Below, in pieces: positions 35,662 to 48,590 of a stretch of DNA of 50,552 nt. A program made the position numbers and the translations under genes. The notes under the pieces are model-generated. The model saw only the letters and a program-made list of their open reading frames with translations, made no database searches and had not been told where the DNA came from. The stretch's first letter is position 1. Every line of letters begins with the position of its first letter. Origin of the DNA: Polyangiaceae bacterium (GTDB lineage: Bacteria; Myxococcota_A; Polyangia; Polyangiales; Polyangiaceae); assembly GCA_020849655.1 (NCBI GenBank), contig JADLFU010000100.1:1-50552 (forward strand), written 5' to 3'.

Positions 35662-36732
35662 GTGCGCCCGCGCCGGCTCGTCCTCCTTGGCTGCGTGATG
35701 ACGCTCGCGGCCTGCGGCGCCGACGACGCGAGCTCGCCGCTCTCCGTCGCGGGCGTCGCGGGCGCGCCTCAGGGGGGTGCGTCGGGCGGCGCCGGCGCGG
35801 CGCAGGCGGGCTCCGCCCAGGCAGGCGAGGGCGGAGCCGTCGCGGGGGGCGCGGCGCAGGCGGGCACCGCGGGAGCGTCGGGCGTCGGGGCGTCGGGCGC
35901 GCCACAGGGTGGGGCAGGGGGAGCGCAGGGCGGCGCGGCGCAAGCGGGGTCGGCGGGCAAGGCGCAGGCGGGCGCCGCGGGGTCGGCGGGCAAGGCGCAG
36001 GCGGGCTCGGCGGGCAAGGCAGGCGCGGGCCAGGCGGGCTCGTCGCAGGCCGGCTGCTTCGGCGAGCTCGACGCGCTCGGCGTCTCCTACAAGAAGACCA
36101 GCGCGAAGGGCGTCGTCGACGCCGTGAACCTCCTCGGCCCGATCGAGGGCGTCACGTTCACGAGCGGCGACACGACGAAGCCCTCGGGCGACCCGATGGC
36201 GTGCGCGTTCGTGCTGACGCTGCGCGAGTTCGCCGCGACCCTGAAGGCCCGAGGCTTCGTGCGGATCGGCACGCTCGGCTCGTACTGCTACCGCTGCTGC
36301 TGCGCGTGGTCGTCGACCAACTACTGCCGCGGCCCGAACGATCCCGAGCCCTCGTGCGGATCGAGCGGCTACTCCAACCACTCCTGGGGTCGCGCGATCG
36401 ACGTGCGCTGGCTCGTCAAGGCCGACGGTACGAAGTACGACGTCAACGATCCCGCTGACTTCGTGGAGTTCTCGAGCACCGACACCTGCGGCGCGGGGCT
36501 CGCCGCCCAGAAGGGCGTGAGCCTCGAGCTCTACTCGCTCGTGTGCGAGCTGAAGGCGAAGAAGGTGTTCAGCACGATCCTCACACCCAACTACAACTCG
36601 AGCCACCGCAACCACTTTCACATGGACATCGGCCAGTCGGGCCCGCCGAGCGGCTTCATCGTGAAGTCGTGGACGGAGGGCGAGATCGACGTCGGCGAGC
36701 ACGCGGACGCGTGCGGCGGCGCGATCGAGTAG
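35662..36732 (+). CDS. Extensin-like / M15-type lipoprotein with long Ala-Gly-Gln spacer
   Basis: The 356-residue protein starts at GTG. The lipobox is LAAC (Cys18). Residues about 28-130 form a low-complexity Ala/Gly/Gln/Ser spacer. The C-terminal domain (about 132-340) is extensin-like/M15 type, with SNHSWGRAIDVRW (His240, Asp247) and HRNHFHMDI (His318, His320) as likely zinc ligands. A Cys cluster (Cys209, Cys212-214, Cys222, Cys232) is unusual for the fold. The likely role is an outer-membrane-tethered peptidase acting on peptidoglycan or a related peptide, with the spacer reaching across the periplasm; this is inference. It ends five bases before the convergent AAA-TPR gene. Confidence 0.82.
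   Translation: MRPRRLVLLGCVMTLAACGADDASSPLSVAGVAGAPQGGASGGAGAAQAGSAQAGEGGAVAGGAAQAGTAGASGVGASGAPQGGAGGAQGGAAQAGSAGKAQAGAAGSAGKAQAGSAGKAGAGQAGSSQAGCFGELDALGVSYKKTSAKGVVDAVNLLGPIEGVTFTSGDTTKPSGDPMACAFVLTLREFAATLKARGFVRIGTLGSYCYRCCCAWSSTNYCRGPNDPEPSCGSSGYSNHSWGRAIDVRWLVKADGTKYDVNDPADFVEFSSTDTCGAGLAAQKGVSLELYSLVCELKAKKVFSTILTPNYNSSHRNHFHMDIGQSGPPSGFIVKSWTEGEIDVGEHADACGGAIE
35950..36030 (+). repeat. 24-bp repeats in the Ala/Gly spacer
   Basis: Two identical 24-bp units lie at 35950-35973 and 35983-36006, and a diverged third at 36007-36030. They encode SAGKAQAG units of the lipoprotein spacer. Because each is a multiple of three, copy number can change without breaking the frame. Confidence 0.8.
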
Positions 36733-36737
36733 CGGCC

Positions 36738-39401
36738 TCAGGAGTCGACCGCAGGCGGCGGCGGCGAGCGCTCCCAGCCGTCGGGCAGCGAGGCTCGGGT
36801 GAGCTTGTCGAGGGCGCTCGCGGCGCGCGCCTCGAGCGCGTCCGCCTCGGCCTCGGCGTTCGGCCCGCCCTCGCGGCGCACGTGCGCGGCGAAGGCCTGG
36901 CACGTCCGCGCGGCCTCGATCTCGTTGCCGATCTCCTCGAAGATGGACGTCGCGCGGAGGAAGTAGTCGCGCGCCTTGCCCGTGTGCTCGGCGCCCCAGC
37001 CTCCCTCCGCCGTGATCTCGCCGAGCGTGCGGACGGCGATCCCGAGGTGGACCTTGCTGCGCACCGCGGTGAACAGCTCGACCGATCGGGAGATGAACTG
37101 CCGCGCCTTCGCGAGCTCGCGGCGGCTCATGTGCGCGCGCCCGAGGCTGCGGAGCACCTCCGCGAGCCCGAGCTTGTCGCCCAGCTCGTCGCAGAGCCCC
37201 TCGGCCTCGGTCAGCACCTTGATCGCGACGTCCGCGTGGCCGAGGCGCTCCTCCGAGACGCCGATGTTCGTGAGCACGAGCGCGACGCGGTTCTTCTCGC
37301 CGACCTCGCGCGCGGCGAGCAGGGCGTCGCCGAGCAGCGTCAGCGCCCGCTCGTGCTCGCCGAGATCCTGCTGCACCGTGCCGAGGTTGTTGAGGCTCGT
37401 CGCCACGCCAGGCACGTCCCCGATCTCGCGGCGGATGCTCAGGCTGTGCTCGAAGGCCTCCTTCGCGCGCGCGTACTCGCCGCAGTCCTGGAGCAGCACG
37501 CCGAGGTTGTTCATGCTGAGCGCGATGCCGCGCCGGTCGCCGAGCCGGCGTCGCAGGGTGAGCCCGCGCTGCAGCGAGTCGAGGGCGAGCGCGTACTCGC
37601 CGCGCATCCACCGGAGCTTGCCGAGATCGTCCTCGGTCGACGCGATGCCGCGCTCGTCGCCCGCCCGCTGGAACAGCGCGAGCCCGGCGCGCAGGTGCGG
37701 CTCCGCGAGCTCGAGCCGGCCGGTGTCGCGGTACAGGCGCCCGATGCGGTTGTGCGCCGCGCCGCCCTTCGCCGGCAGATCGAGGCGGTACGCGAGCGTC
37801 TTCATCTCCTCGAACTCGGCGAGCGCCGCCTCCGCGTGGCCCGACGCGAGCAGCACGTCGCCGTGGTCGTGCAGCGCGTCGACCCGGCGCCCCGCGTCGC
37901 GGCTCCCGAGCAGCGAGAGGCCGCGCTCGTAGTACTCGACGGCCTTCTGGTGGGCGAAGCGCGCGCGTGCGATGGCGCCCGCCTCGAGGTACGACAGCGC
38001 CGCCCTCGTGCGCGCGCCGGCCAGCTCGCGGTGGCGCGCGAGCATGCCCATGTGCTCCTCGTGCGCGCGCACGCCCGCCTTGTGCTCGAGCCAGTCGGCG
38101 AGGATCTGGTGGTAGGAGCGGAGGTCCTGCGGGCTCGTCCCGCTCGCGATCCGCTCGCGCTCCTTGTTGTGCTTGAACACGAGCTCGCGCTCGCCCGCGA
38201 ACGTGCTGTCGGGGAGGCGGAGCAGGTAGTCGCGCTCCACGAGCTCGTCGAGCGCCGCCGTGATGGTCGCGGCGTCGGCGTCCTCTTCCGCCGTCCAGAA
38301 CGCGGGGCCCGGGCGCTCGCTGCGCGTGAGCGCGGAGAGGCCGCCCTCCCAGAACACGCTGCCCATCGCCGCGGCGCGCTCGAGCAGGCGGCGCTCGTCC
38401 GGCGAGAGCGCCGCGATCCGCGCCTCGACGGCGTCCTCGACCGACAGCGGCAGCCGCGCGCGATCGAGCTTGTCGAGGTGCACGCGCCACTCGGGGCGGT
38501 GCGTGGCGCTCGGCGTGACCTCGAGGACGCCGGTGTCGACGAACACGCGGATCATCCGCTCGAGCAGCATCGGGTTGCCCCCGGCCGCGGCGCACGCGGA
38601 GTCGACGAGCGCCTCGGGAACGTCGCCGCACGGCTCGAGCAGCGCCTCGACCACGGTGACGGACTCGGGCTCGCCGAGCGCGCCGAGCTCCACGCGCCGC
38701 AGGCGATCCTTCGAGATCGCGGTGAACCCCTCGTGCAGCGCGCCGAGGTCCGCGCGCGACGCGCACACGATCAGCACCGGGGCGTCGACGAGATCGCAGA
38801 GGAACGCGAGCAGCTCGCGCGAGTCGTGGTGCGCGTCGTCGAGGTCGTCGAAGAACAGCGCGAGGGGCGCCGCCGCCGCGTCGCTCTCGATCAGCCGCCG
38901 CAGCACGCTGCGCCGCACGAGGCGCCCCTCGATCGCGTCCTCGCCGACCGCCTTCGTGAGCGGGCTGTCAGGGAAGGGGAGCCCGAGCAGCTGCCCGAGG
39001 AAGAACAGCACGTCGCCGACCTTGCGGTCCTCGAGGACCGACGCGACCTGCGCGCGCACGAGCGATTTCGCGGCCTCGGGATCGATGCCGTCGCCGAGGC
39101 CGAAGCGCGCCCGGAGCAGGCGCTCGAACATCGCGTACGCGTCCTCCGAGCCGCGCGCGCTGCCGCGGAACACGCGCACCTCCTCGCCCTCGTCCGGTGT
39201 CTCGAGGCCCTGGAAGAACTCGTACGCCAGCCTGGATTTCCCGATGCCGGCGGGGCCGACGAGCGACACCACGCGCGCCTCGCGCGACGTCTTGACCTCC
39301 GAGAGCGCGTCCTCGAGCGCGGCGAGCTCGCGCCCGCGCCCGACCATCGGCGCCTGCAGCGAATTCGACGAGAGCCCTACCCAGCGGAGGCGGTCGGTCA
39401 T
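36738..39401 (-). CDS. AAA ATPase-TPR regulatory protein (kinase-less)
   Basis: The protein is 887 residues from the ATG at 39401; an in-frame ATG at 39425 is an alternative. A short leader ends in VGRGRELAAL. An AAA_16/STAND-like ATPase domain follows, with Walker A GPAGIGKS (49-56) and Walker B ALFFDDLDDAHHD (181-193). Winged-helix-like segments follow to about 430. The C-terminal half (about 450-870) is clear TPR, with repeats such as RGIALSMNNLGVLLQDCGEY and IASTEDDLGKLRWMRGEYAL. There is no DNA-binding or kinase domain. The layout matches the ATPase part of the kinase fusion at 44856, so it is probably a signal-integrating scaffold. The lipoprotein gene upstream on the same strand ends 40 bases before the start. 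Confidence 0.85.
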   Translation of the reverse strand: MTDRLRWVGLSSNSLQAPMVGRGRELAALEDALSEVKTSREARVVSLVGPAGIGKSRLAYEFFQGLETPDEGEEVRVFRGSARGSEDAYAMFERLLRARFGLGDGIDPEAAKSLVRAQVASVLEDRKVGDVLFFLGQLLGLPFPDSPLTKAVGEDAIEGRLVRRSVLRRLIESDAAAAPLALFFDDLDDAHHDSRELLAFLCDLVDAPVLIVCASRADLGALHEGFTAISKDRLRRVELGALGEPESVTVVEALLEPCGDVPEALVDSACAAAGGNPMLLERMIRVFVDTGVLEVTPSATHRPEWRVHLDKLDRARLPLSVEDAVEARIAALSPDERRLLERAAAMGSVFWEGGLSALTRSERPGPAFWTAEEDADAATITAALDELVERDYLLRLPDSTFAGERELVFKHNKERERIASGTSPQDLRSYHQILADWLEHKAGVRAHEEHMGMLARHRELAGARTRAALSYLEAGAIARARFAHQKAVEYYERGLSLLGSRDAGRRVDALHDHGDVLLASGHAEAALAEFEEMKTLAYRLDLPAKGGAAHNRIGRLYRDTGRLELAEPHLRAGLALFQRAGDERGIASTEDDLGKLRWMRGEYALALDSLQRGLTLRRRLGDRRGIALSMNNLGVLLQDCGEYARAKEAFEHSLSIRREIGDVPGVATSLNNLGTVQQDLGEHERALTLLGDALLAAREVGEKNRVALVLTNIGVSEERLGHADVAIKVLTEAEGLCDELGDKLGLAEVLRSLGRAHMSRRELAKARQFISRSVELFTAVRSKVHLGIAVRTLGEITAEGGWGAEHTGKARDYFLRATSIFEEIGNEIEAARTCQAFAAHVRREGGPNAEAEADALEARAASALDKLTRASLPDGWERSPPPPAVDS

Positions 39402-39441
39402 GGGATCGATCGATGCTAGTGCCATCGCCGCGCGCGGCGCG

Positions 39442-40548: not shown

Positions 40549-42663
40549 GTGGCCTTGCGTCGCTCTCCCTGGTTCGCCTTCTTCGCGCTCGCGGGCGGGC
40601 TCGCGCTCCACGGCGGCTGCGGGTCCGACGGAGGCGCGCTCGTCGACGCGAACTCGGGGCCGCAGCCCCCGTCAGGCACCGGCGGCTTCGATCCCGGCCC
40701 GGGCGGGCCCTACGGCTGCGGCGCAGGCACCGGCAGCGGCGCGAGCACCGGCAGCGGCGCGAGCACCGGCAGCGGCGCGTCGACCGGCTGCGGCGCCTCG
40801 TCCCAGGGCGGGCCCGACGGCGGCGCGGACGCGACGACCGAGCCCGCTCCTCCGATGTGCGCGGAGGCGCAGCGAAGGTGCGCGCACGAGTTCACGCTCC
40901 CCGCCGGCGGAGAGGCGAGCGTCGAGGTGCGCGGCGACTTCGCGCCCGGCGCGTGGGCGAAGGGCGTCTCGATGACCCAGCAGGGCGGCGCGTGGCGCGC
41001 GAGCGTGCCCGTGCCGTGGGCGACGACGGTGCGCTACAAGTTCTTCGTCGACGGCAAGACGTGGCGTGAGGATCCGGCGAACCCCGCGACCGAGCCCGAC
41101 GGCAGCGGCGGACAGAACTCCCTGCTCGCGCCGCTCACCTGCGACGCCTTCACGTGCGAGGTCCCCTCGGGCACCTTCGACTGGCGCGACGCCGTGCTCT
41201 ACTTCGTCTTCGTCGATCGGTTCGCGAACGGCGATCCATCGAACGACGGCGCGCCGGTGCCCGGCGTGATGGCCCCCGCGAACTACCAGGGCGGCGACTA
41301 CAAGGGCCTGCTCGCGAAGATCGAGGAGGGCTACTTCGAGGGCCTCGGGGTCAACGCGCTCTGGCTCACCGTGCCGATGGACAACCCCGACGCGCCCGGC
41401 CTCGGCACGGACGGCAAGCAGTACAGCGCGTACCACGGGTACTGGCCGGGCCGGCTCGACGCCGTCGAGTCGCGCTTCGGCACGCTCGCCGAGTTGAAGG
41501 CGGTGGTCGCGGCGGCGCACGCCCACGGCCTCAAGGTGCTCATCGACTACGCGATGAACCACGTCCACGAGTCGTCGCCCGTGTACGCCGACCACCCCGA
41601 CTGGTTCTGGCCCGCGACCTACAACGGGAAATCGTGCGTGTGCGGCGAGGGCTGCTCGTGGGACGACCCGTACGAGGCGCGGCGGTGCTGGTTCCGTCCG
41701 TACCTGCCCGACTTCGACTTCACGAGGGCGGACGCGCGAAAATTCTCGATCGACAACGCGCTCTACTGGGCGAAGGAGCTGTCGCTCGACGGGTTCCGCC
41801 TCGACGCCGTCAAGCACATCGAGACGCCGTGGATCACCGAGCTGCGCGCGCGGCTCTCGGCCGAGGTCGAGCCGACCACGAAAGAACATTTCTACCTCGT
41901 CGGCGAGACCTTCACGGGCGATCGCGGCGTCATCGGGGCGTACGTCGATCCGTTCACGAAGCTCGACGGGCAGTTCGATTTCCCGCTGCGGATGCAGCTC
42001 GCCGAGACGCTGCTGATGCGCAAGGGCTCGCTCGCCTCGCTCGACGGGTTCCTCTCGACGAATGACGGCTTCTACGGCGCGGGGATCATGAGCACGTTCG
42101 TCGGCAACCACGACATCCCGCGGCCGATCCACTTCGCCGAGGACGCCCCGCTGTGGGCAGACCCGTGGGCCGACGGGAAGGACCGCGCGTGGCAGAACAC
42201 CCCGCCGCTCCCGACCGGCGCCGCGGCGTTCGAGCGGCTCGGGCTCGCGTTCACCTTCCTGTTCACCACGAAGGGCGTGCCGCTCGTCTACTACGGTGAC
42301 GAGATCGGTCTGCCCGGCGCGGGCGATCCCGACAACCGCCGCATGATGGCGTGGTCGGGCGAGAGCCCGGCGCAGGTGGCGCTCCGCGAGCACGTGAAGA
42401 AGCTCGGCAAGATCCGCAAGGAGCACGCGGCGCTGCGGCGAGGCGCGCGCGCGTCGCTCGGGGCCACCGCCGACACGCTCGTGTTCGAGCAGAGCGGCGG
42501 CGCAGACCGCGTGGTGGTCGCGCTCAACCGCGCGGACTCGGATCAGCAGGTCTCCGGCGTCCCCGCCGGCGCGTGGGTCGACCTCTTGACGGGCGCGTCC
42601 GTGCAGGGAGGCGGCGCGGTCACCGTCCCGGCGAGGCGCGCGCTCGTGCTCGCGGCGCCGTGA
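40549..42663 (+). CDS. Exported GH13 alpha-amylase family hydrolase
   Basis: The protein is 704 residues from the GTG at 40549. The signal peptide ends GLALHGGC, a weak lipobox with His at -3, so it may be secreted rather than lipidated. A Gly/Ser/Thr spacer (about 45-90) precedes an N-terminal Ig-like starch-enzyme domain (about 105-195, with VRYKFFVDGKTWRED). The GH13 barrel follows from about 205: region I DYAMNHVH, region II GFRLDAVKH with nucleophile Asp419, region III Glu453 (VGETF), and region IV Asp522 (VGNHD). A C-terminal beta domain closes the chain. It should hydrolyse alpha-1,4-glucans outside the cytoplasm. Its stop overlaps the start of the phosphopantetheinyl-transferase-like gene. 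Confidence 0.9.
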   Translation: MALRRSPWFAFFALAGGLALHGGCGSDGGALVDANSGPQPPSGTGGFDPGPGGPYGCGAGTGSGASTGSGASTGSGASTGCGASSQGGPDGGADATTEPAPPMCAEAQRRCAHEFTLPAGGEASVEVRGDFAPGAWAKGVSMTQQGGAWRASVPVPWATTVRYKFFVDGKTWREDPANPATEPDGSGGQNSLLAPLTCDAFTCEVPSGTFDWRDAVLYFVFVDRFANGDPSNDGAPVPGVMAPANYQGGDYKGLLAKIEEGYFEGLGVNALWLTVPMDNPDAPGLGTDGKQYSAYHGYWPGRLDAVESRFGTLAELKAVVAAAHAHGLKVLIDYAMNHVHESSPVYADHPDWFWPATYNGKSCVCGEGCSWDDPYEARRCWFRPYLPDFDFTRADARKFSIDNALYWAKELSLDGFRLDAVKHIETPWITELRARLSAEVEPTTKEHFYLVGETFTGDRGVIGAYVDPFTKLDGQFDFPLRMQLAETLLMRKGSLASLDGFLSTNDGFYGAGIMSTFVGNHDIPRPIHFAEDAPLWADPWADGKDRAWQNTPPLPTGAAAFERLGLAFTFLFTTKGVPLVYYGDEIGLPGAGDPDNRRMMAWSGESPAQVALREHVKKLGKIRKEHAALRRGARASLGATADTLVFEQSGGADRVVVALNRADSDQQVSGVPAGAWVDLLTGASVQGGGAVTVPARRALVLAAP
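40727..40780 (+). repeat. 18-bp tandem repeat x3 in the amylase spacer
   Basis: Three units at 40727-40744, 40745-40762 and 40763-40780 are identical except for the last base of the third. A degenerate fourth follows at 40781-40798. They encode TGSGAS units of the spacer between signal peptide and starch-binding-like domain. Confidence 0.88.
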
Positions 42664-43349
42664 CGTCGGCGGTCGCGGAGGTCTCGCTCGCCGGGCCGCT
42701 CTCGGGCGTCGGCGTCGACGTCGTCTCGATCGGCCGCGTGAGCGCGCGCCTCGCCCGCGCGAAGTTCAGCGCCGAGGAGGTCGAGCGGTTCCGGGGTCGA
42801 CGCGAGCTGCCGTTCGCCGCGCGAGAGGCGGTGCTGAAGGCCGTCGGCGGCCCCGGGATCCTCCGCGCGCCGCTGCGGGACATGGTCGTCGAGTGGTCGG
42901 CGGGCGCGCTCAGGCTGCGGCCCGGCCCCGCGTACCGCGAGGTGATGAGGCGCGAGGGCGTGGCATCCGTGCGACTCGCCGTCCTCGCCGTCTCGCCGGC
43001 GCACGTCGTCGTCACGGCGCTCGCGGCTCGAGACGGCCCGCCGTCCCGCGTCCGCGTCGCGTACGCGACCGAGCCGGTCCCCTCCGCGGCCGATGATCTC
43101 GACGACGACGAGCGCGCGGCGTGCCTCTCTCGGCCCGATCCGCGCGCCTCCGCGGCGGCGCGCATGGCCGCACACGCGGCAGGCCGCCTGCTGTTCGCGG
43201 GGGCGACCCTCCGCGTCCGCGCGCCTCGCGACCGAGCGCCCGAAGCGCTGGGCGCGCCGACGCCGACGTGGCTGTCGCTCGCGCACGAGCGAGACCTCGC
43301 CATCGCGCTCCTCGCTCACCCGACACCGGGCGACCGCGATCCTGCTTGA
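42660..43349 (+). CDS. Two-lobed phosphopantetheinyl-transferase-like protein (tandem AcpS-like)
   Basis: The protein is 229 residues from the GTG at 42660, which overlaps the amylase stop (GTGA). Residues 14-125 resemble AcpS: GVGVDVVSIGRV with metal ligand Asp20, and FAAREAVLKAVGG with Glu56 and Lys60. The usual SxSH strand is degraded to AVSPAH. Residues 130-220 look like a second, degenerate copy. Its E-A-K motif is lost (AARMAAHAAGRLL), but WLSLAHERDLAIALL (about 204-218) keeps the SxxH strand. The metal site and the SxH strand therefore sit on different halves, in the reverse order to Sfp-type enzymes. A 4'-phosphopantetheine transfer to an unknown carrier protein is plausible. Family assignment is moderate; the two-copy reading is inference. 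Confidence 0.65.
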   Translation: MTSAVAEVSLAGPLSGVGVDVVSIGRVSARLARAKFSAEEVERFRGRRELPFAAREAVLKAVGGPGILRAPLRDMVVEWSAGALRLRPGPAYREVMRREGVASVRLAVLAVSPAHVVVTALAARDGPPSRVRVAYATEPVPSAADDLDDDERAACLSRPDPRASAAARMAAHAAGRLLFAGATLRVRAPRDRAPEALGAPTPTWLSLAHERDLAIALLAHPTPGDRDPA

Positions 43350-43383: not shown

Positions 43384-43959
43384 ATGTCCCGCGCCAAGAT
43401 CTTGATCTGCGTCATTGCCACCGCGGCTCCGCTGCTCGCCGCCTGCGGCGACGACTCCTCCGGATCGTCCACGACGACGGGCGCGGCGGGCGCGAGCGCG
43501 GGCGGGAGCTCGAGCGCCGGCGCGTCGGGGTCGAACTCCGCGGGCGCGGGCGGGGCGGCGACGGCGGGCGCGGGCGCGGGCGGGGCGGTGGCGGGCGGCG
43601 CGAGCGGCGCCGCCGGATCGAGCAGCGCGCTGGTCGATCTCGCGGGGTGCACCGAGGCGACGGCGGCGGACAAGGCGGGAGGCGCCGTCGTCACGGCGGG
43701 CGTCGGCGGGCCGAAGTACGCGCCCGCGTGCGTCAAGATCAAGGTCGGCGACGCGGTCGAGTTCAAGGGCACCTCGTCGATCCACCCGCTCGTCGGCATG
43801 TCGACCGCCGGCACCCAGCCGAACCCCATCGGCCCGTCGTCGACTTCGGACAAGACCGTCACCTTCACGGCGCCGGGCACGTACGGCTACTTCTGCGAGA
43901 ACCACGGCGCGGACGGCTCGTCGTCCGGGATGGTCGGCGCGGTGTACGTCGCGCCCTAG
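43384..43959 (+). CDS. Cupredoxin (plastocyanin-like) copper-binding lipoprotein
   Basis: The 191-residue protein has a lipobox LAAC (Cys21), then a Gly/Ala/Ser spacer (about 30-82). A cupredoxin domain (about 83-191) contains the type I copper ligands His134 (SSIHPLVG), Cys171 and His174 (YFCENH) and Met183 (GMVGAVYV). The loop between His174 and Met183 is longer than in plastocyanin, where the His-Met spacing is five. Cys90 and Cys116 could form a disulfide. It is likely a surface- or periplasm-facing electron carrier; the partner is unknown. It lies 34 bases after the transferase-like gene on the same strand. Confidence 0.88.
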   Translation: MSRAKILICVIATAAPLLAACGDDSSGSSTTTGAAGASAGGSSSAGASGSNSAGAGGAATAGAGAGGAVAGGASGAAGSSSALVDLAGCTEATAADKAGGAVVTAGVGGPKYAPACVKIKVGDAVEFKGTSSIHPLVGMSTAGTQPNPIGPSSTSDKTVTFTAPGTYGYFCENHGADGSSSGMVGAVYVAP

Positions 43960-44663: not shown

Positions 44664-44855
44664 GCTGGGCGGCAGCGTAGCACGTAGCGGGCGGGGGCCG
44701 CCCCTCCTCCCGCGCGCCTCGCTACCCGGAGCACGCGACACGCGCGACCGCGGCGCGGGCCGAGGGGAACGCCCTCTCTCAGCAAAGCGGCGCCCGGGCG
44801 CTCGAGGGGCTCGACGCGCGCGCCCGTCGTGAGGTACCCCGAGAGGTGCGCTCAT

Positions 44856-48590
<3,735 letters not shown>

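Follow-up and report, generated by a model that had tools for sequence, protein, structure and literature searches.

Group II 4'-phosphopantetheinyl transferases (PPTases) are interpreted as two AcpS-like domains fused into one chain, and the step from a symmetric trimer to a monomer is known only by inference from pseudodimers that are already complete. These enzymes (Sfp/EntD/PptT-type; PF17837 4PPT_N plus PF01648 ACPS) are single chains of more than 220 aa with two AcpS-fold halves, the PF17837 Ser/His half coming first and the half that carries Asp, Glu and Lys (D/E/K) coming second. The human enzyme of this group holds the CoA phosphates with Ser110 and His111 of its first half, and its Mg-binding and catalytic residues, Asp129, Glu181 and Lys185, belong to the second half (PMC2148441). 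Group II pseudodimers of the size of the protein described here are monomers (PMC4103896). Group I enzymes (AcpS, holo-ACP synthase; TIGR00516) consist of a single domain of ~120 aa with both D/E/K and an SxSH motif, and form trimers in which the active site lies between subunits (PMC2148441, PMC9338922). The PPT domains of fungal FAS and some PKSs make up group III.

The window analyzed here, the whole stretch of 50,552 nucleotides from a Polyangiaceae bacterium, encodes a tandem AcpS-like protein in which the two kinds of half are joined the other way round. Its open reading frame (42660..43349, + strand) runs from a GTG start at 42660 to a TGA stop at 43349 and specifies 229 aa in two half-domains, with the D/E/K half first and a half bearing an SLAHE motif second; an orthologue has the same start and context. 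Like the group II enzymes, it is a single chain of ~230 aa whose two AcpS-fold halves (that of half 2 in a model built on AcpS rows) separate Ser/His from D/E/K. It differs from them in the order of the halves and in that its half 1 resembles AcpS more than it does the second halves of group II. The reversal of order, already pointed out in the sequence-only reading, was borne out by 24 Sfp-type PPTases collected from the family, in which the Ser/His strand precedes D/E/K, as it does in group II relatives elsewhere in the phylum. The protein shares fold and motifs with group I, half 1 being closest to AcpS, but has two domains per chain, each without the other's active-site part, and scores 12.7 bits against the TIGR00516 cut-off of 59.8. 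With group III it shares the AcpS fold, 2was and 2wat being among the fold matches, but the domains of that group are integral to megasynthases. Two large ORFs of the family (L119 and L121, in genomes G066 and G069) end in a PPTase pseudodimer of SLAH-first order; these pseudodimers are probably integrated PPT domains of PKS-like proteins. No description of reversed-order or split PPTases was found in the open-access literature searched, which is not proof of their absence.

Architecture of the two half-domains

Half 1 (residues 1-124; 42660..43031, +) matched PF01648 over residues 16-87 with an E value of 2.6e-6 and 27.4 bits, above the curated Pfam cut-off of 25. Profile comparison (hhalign) with 36 AcpS sequences of the same family gave a score of 56.4, against a mean of 12.6 and a maximum of 23.1 for shuffled sequences (0/200 as high), and the corresponding score against group II second halves was 27.4. 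In the alignments, Asp20 (42717..42719, +), the metal ligand of the GxGxD motif (here GVGVD), and Glu56 and Lys60 in FAAREAVLKA (EAVLK, 42825..42839, +) coincide with the metal and catalytic residues of AcpS, and these positions are invariant in both orthologues. The last strand pair of the half (residues 105-123; 42972..43028, +) reads RLAVLAVSPAHVVVTALA and is without SxSH, which is replaced by AVLA. Strands are nevertheless predicted there, at residues 103-111 and 115-123 of the model, and therefore the motif has been lost and the strand kept. The sequence-only reading was thus correct about the retention of Asp20 and Glu56 and the loss of the SxSH motif, and mistaken in taking the strand itself to be lost. 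The full-length AlphaFold model is weak (pLDDT 55.5, pTM 0.55) and does not display the packing of the halves. Within it, the strands and helices of half 1 follow each other as in AcpS, and residues 11-126 match solved AcpS structures with Z up to 7.7 and rmsd 4.2-4.6, Z values of a middling size that is common and that supports the AcpS fold without proving it. Two features of half 1 speak against the enzyme reading preferred below: its helix region is shortened, and no sequence similarity to AcpS was found for residues 66-124.

Half 2 (residues 125-229; 43032..43346, +), a degenerate domain of the AcpS or group II first-half kind, is missed by annotation that relies on Pfam only. Its single sequence matched 4PPT_N (PF17837) with E values of 0.13-0.38 and at most 12.8 bits, below the cut-off of 27. 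Profile comparison did recover the relationship. Against the same 36 AcpS sequences half 2 scored 33.9, a value reached by 0/200 shuffles (mean 10.7, sd 2.1, maximum 17.6) and by 0/300 real decoy fragments (maximum 20.1), and against myxobacterial group II first halves it scored 51.0 (hhalign; 0/100 shuffles and 0/300 decoys as high). Residues 125-203, the helix region with SLAHE left out, still match AcpS (24.3, 0/200 shuffles), as does the SLAHE strand alone (21.7, 0/200 shuffles). Judged by these profile scores, half 2 is homologous to AcpS-type domains. Its alignment (A2) has no Asp and places His172-Ala173 (43173..43178, +) at the Lys-Glu pair of AcpS, with loss of the catalytic Glu, as had been read from the sequence. 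SLAHE is kept (residues 206-210; 43275..43289, +), and its His209 matches the CoA-phosphate-binding His (alignments A2 and A3).

Structure prediction also gave half 2 the AcpS fold, a result that could have overturned the two-domain proposal and did not. Modeled alone with AcpS rows in its alignment, the half reached a pLDDT of 82.4 and matched AcpS 3hyk with Z 11.1 and rmsd 3.0 over 98 residues; the AcpS rows bias this model toward the AcpS fold, and weight accordingly falls on the profile comparisons controlled by shuffles and decoys. A PDB search with the single sequence returned no match, and one with a profile of SLAH-type domains listed AcpS chains alone, none of them significant (best E 0.056).

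The active-site motifs are therefore divided between two domains, D/E/K on the first and SLAHE on the second, and the losses are reciprocal. Profile scores, alignment and AcpS fold matches for both halves bear out the observation of a tandem AcpS-like protein with complementary degenerate halves. The interpretation first attached to it is partly supported, being right on architecture and order and weaker on an independent evolutionary route. Direct comparison of half 1 with half 2 detected no similarity.

Relatives and origin of the halves

The orthologue (L004:1498-2175) was found in the Myxococcota MAG KLAP97, the one other genome of the genus searched, and is 73% identical to the tandem protein. 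It has the same start and 4-base overlap, and the same neighbors, an amylase gene upstream and a gene for a cupredoxin-like lipoprotein downstream. The motif blocks FAAREAVLKAVGGPGILRAPLR and WLSLAHERDLA are invariant between the two proteins. The dN/dS ratio of the pair is 0.28 for the whole gene, compared with 0.15 for the neighboring amylase gene, and values of 0.22 for half 1 and 0.32 for half 2 indicate purifying selection on each. The gene product is a real, constrained protein, and its sole close homologue does not have the form that would have spoken against a tandem, a single normal AcpS domain followed by an unrelated tail. No third full-length member was found in 317 genomes of the class, in each of which some of the candidates were scored, or in the public genome collection. 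A first genome scan of other collections yielded no relatives and a profile scan yielded the KLAP97 MAG only; plasmids and viral contigs yielded none.

A different arrangement was identified in a genome from another genus of the same family (G112, contig C5), in which two AcpS-like genes with complementary losses stand apart in one gene run. The SLAH-type protein (L118:1483-2004) keeps SLAHD and has neither the Asp nor the Lys-Glu pair, and the D/E/K-type protein (L118:4753-5196) keeps D/E/K and has no SxSH. The run comprises, in order, genes for an ACP, the SLAH-type protein, a fatty-acid desaturase, a nitroreductase, an acyltransferase, the D/E/K-type protein, a ketosynthase and an SDR. Both proteins match NCBI AcpS models (2.3e-11 over positions 10-128 and 2.3e-12 over 5-84), and identity to the halves of the tandem protein is 29% for the D/E/K-type protein (alignment A4) and 35% for the SLAH-type protein (alignment A3). 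The pair looks like the two halves of the tandem protein as separate subunits, and it is possible that the two proteins act together as a heteromeric PPTase. It differs from the tandem protein in that the genes are separate and lie in a cluster with ACP, ketosynthase and desaturase genes, in a genome that also carries a canonical acpS. These split half-genes are new here and may hint at how single-chain PPTases were assembled. A further AcpS-like match, of 144 aa (L120:1740-2171, in G277, contig C248; also seen as L082), keeps D/E/K and has VTTARR at the SxSH site. It was rejected as a relative of the tandem form, being a single D/E/K-type domain without SxSH and without an SLAH partner on its 3.9 kb contig.

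The origin of the halves was addressed by profile searches and trees. When a profile of half 2 and its kin was searched across the phylum, the best non-self match was the first half of a ~230-aa group II PPTase with normally ordered halves, from outside the taxonomic order, and several more such enzymes were found among the single-domain AcpS matches. In a tree of SLAH-type domains half 2 falls beside group II first halves with support of 88/86, and in a tree of D/E/K-type domains half 1 falls among AcpS, the branches being long and the support moderate in these trees. On this evidence half 2 appears to be group II-like and half 1 AcpS-like, which is better explained by a permutation or new fusion than by AcpS having been duplicated afresh. 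Because the G112 genome holds the half-types as separate genes, permutation or the re-fusion of two subunits likewise fits better. The tandem protein has the look of a group II-like PPTase that was permuted or re-fused, more than of an independent AcpS duplication.

That alternative, which concerns origin and not function, holds that AcpS was duplicated in tandem and that the copies lost complementary parts, yielding a monomeric enzyme by a second route, as the sequence-only reading had proposed. The AcpS-like character of half 1 (56.4 against AcpS, 27.4 against group II second halves), the score of half 2 against AcpS, which exceeds all shuffles, and the existence of AcpS-derived half-subunits in G112 favor it. 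We nonetheless regard it as unlikely, since half 2 scores higher against group II first halves than against AcpS (51.0 versus 33.9) and joins the former in the tree (88/86), since the two halves have no direct similarity, and since a split-gene relative exists. A circular permutation of the family's own Sfp-type enzyme was considered separately and is disfavored on both sides: half 2 scores 20.8 against Sfp first halves, with 2/200 shuffles as high, and half 1 scores 33.0 against Sfp second halves, compared with 56.4 against AcpS.

Together, the two-gene form, which would be a heteromeric PPTase in G112, and fusions in both orders, D/E/K-first in the tandem protein, raise the tentative suggestion, in our judgment a little short of probable, that the half-domains of PPTases can be exchanged as modules. 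One and the same interface could be built from separate subunits or from halves joined either way round, and the occurrence of a reversed fusion and a split form in related bacteria makes the step from trimer to monomer testable.

Proposed activity and genomic setting

The reading that we prefer, and consider reasonably probable, is that the protein is an active single-chain 4'-phosphopantetheinyl transferase with one composite site and its halves in reversed order. Half 1 would supply the Mg-binding and catalytic residues Asp20, Glu56 and Lys60, like one AcpS subunit, and half 2 would supply the SLAHE strand that holds the CoA phosphates, like the neighboring subunit. The interface would be of the same kind as in group II (Sfp/EntD-type) pseudodimers, with the halves joined the opposite way, given that the same interface could form whether a D/E/K-bearing half A precedes an SLAH-bearing half B in the chain or follows it. 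We infer from the retained motifs that the halves pack together, bind CoA-Mg and transfer phosphopantetheine to a carrier protein that serves the type II synthesis of fatty acids or polyketides. Such an enzyme most likely arose when a group II-like enzyme was permuted, or when two separately encoded half-enzymes like the G112 pair were fused, in a genus from which ordinary acpS has apparently been lost.

The PPTase inventory of the genus bears on this proposal. In relatives from the family, acpS sits between pdxJ and nnr; both genomes of the genus have pdxJ and nnr, with no acpS beside either gene and no canonical AcpS found. A TIGR00516 match over the cut-off occurs in 60/106 family genomes and in 0/2 of this genus; both genus genomes are MAGs (97% and 84% complete), and so the absence of acpS from the genus is likely and not certain. 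The tandem protein would be a compact PPTase whose source genus lacks ordinary AcpS. Each of the two genomes also encodes one Sfp-type PPTase, and both encode carrier proteins, including an ACP of 89 aa (at G000:C30 in the genome that contains the window). Many relatives without AcpS over the cut-off still have a PF01648 match, largely Sfp-type as judged by length, and therefore the tandem protein is probably not the sole PPTase able to serve fatty-acid synthesis. Since an Sfp-type enzyme is present and many relatives apparently manage with Sfp-type enzymes alone, it need not be required. More broadly, in ~40% of the family genomes searched no AcpS exceeds the TIGR00516 cut-off, and nearly all have some PPTase match, an apparent pattern of repeated acpS loss with Sfp-type enzymes remaining.

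The Sfp-type enzyme, which may cover all needs, also lends some weight to a rival in which the fold is dead or has been repurposed, so that the tandem protein would be a onetime PPTase retained for some other task, such as binding a carrier protein or CoA without transfer. The surroundings of the gene point the same way, as no carrier-protein gene adjoins it, in keeping with the sequence-only reading, and it is linked to a gene for an exported alpha-amylase. The GTG start of the tandem gene overlaps the stop of the amylase gene in the bases GTGA (42660..42663, +), an overlap found again in the orthologue, and translational coupling of the two genes, as stated in the sequence-only reading, is possible. 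Set against this rival, the residues needed for one composite site are exactly those kept and the others are those lost, the motif blocks are invariant between orthologues 73% identical, and dN/dS is 0.28; we judge repurposing to be unlikely. More doubtful still is a cyclic oligomer working like the AcpS trimer, in which chains are arranged head to tail and each half 1 faces the half 2 of a neighboring chain. The AcpS active site does lie between subunits (PMC9338922, PMC2148441) and a pseudodimer leaves two unused faces, but equally large pseudodimers of group II are monomeric (PMC4103896). A single AcpS domain interrupted by an insertion of ~85 residues, as produced by one MAFFT mode in which the two ends of the protein align with single AcpS and the middle is treated as inserted, is highly improbable, given that the helix region of AcpS is matched by residues 125-203 even when SLAHE is left out (0/200 shuffles) and that in the model residues 11-126 by themselves make up the entire AcpS topology.

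The catalytic part of the exported amylase (41104..42663, +; PF00128, E 2.6e-34) ends inside the start of the tandem gene, and its lipoprotein-like N terminus lies farther upstream. Among the loci listed, not all of which were oriented, amylase homologues in other genera have different downstream genes; a function inferred via the amylase was rejected on this ground, and the neighborhood looks genus-specific. Downstream of the tandem gene, a lipoprotein that is cupredoxin-like by inspection (43384..43959, +) has no Pfam match at 1e-5 and is syntenic with its counterpart at the orthologue's locus. Farther out, the locus is flanked by two large regulators, an AAA_16-TPR protein (36738-39425, -) and a Ser/Thr kinase fused to an AAA_16 ATPase (44829-48590, +). 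Short tandem repeats at 40713-40796 and 43539-43606 encode low-complexity Ser/Gly/Ala linkers located after the lipoprotein signals in both the amylase and the cupredoxin-like protein, and a similar repeat array (35944-36050) lies in an extensin-like-C lipoprotein.
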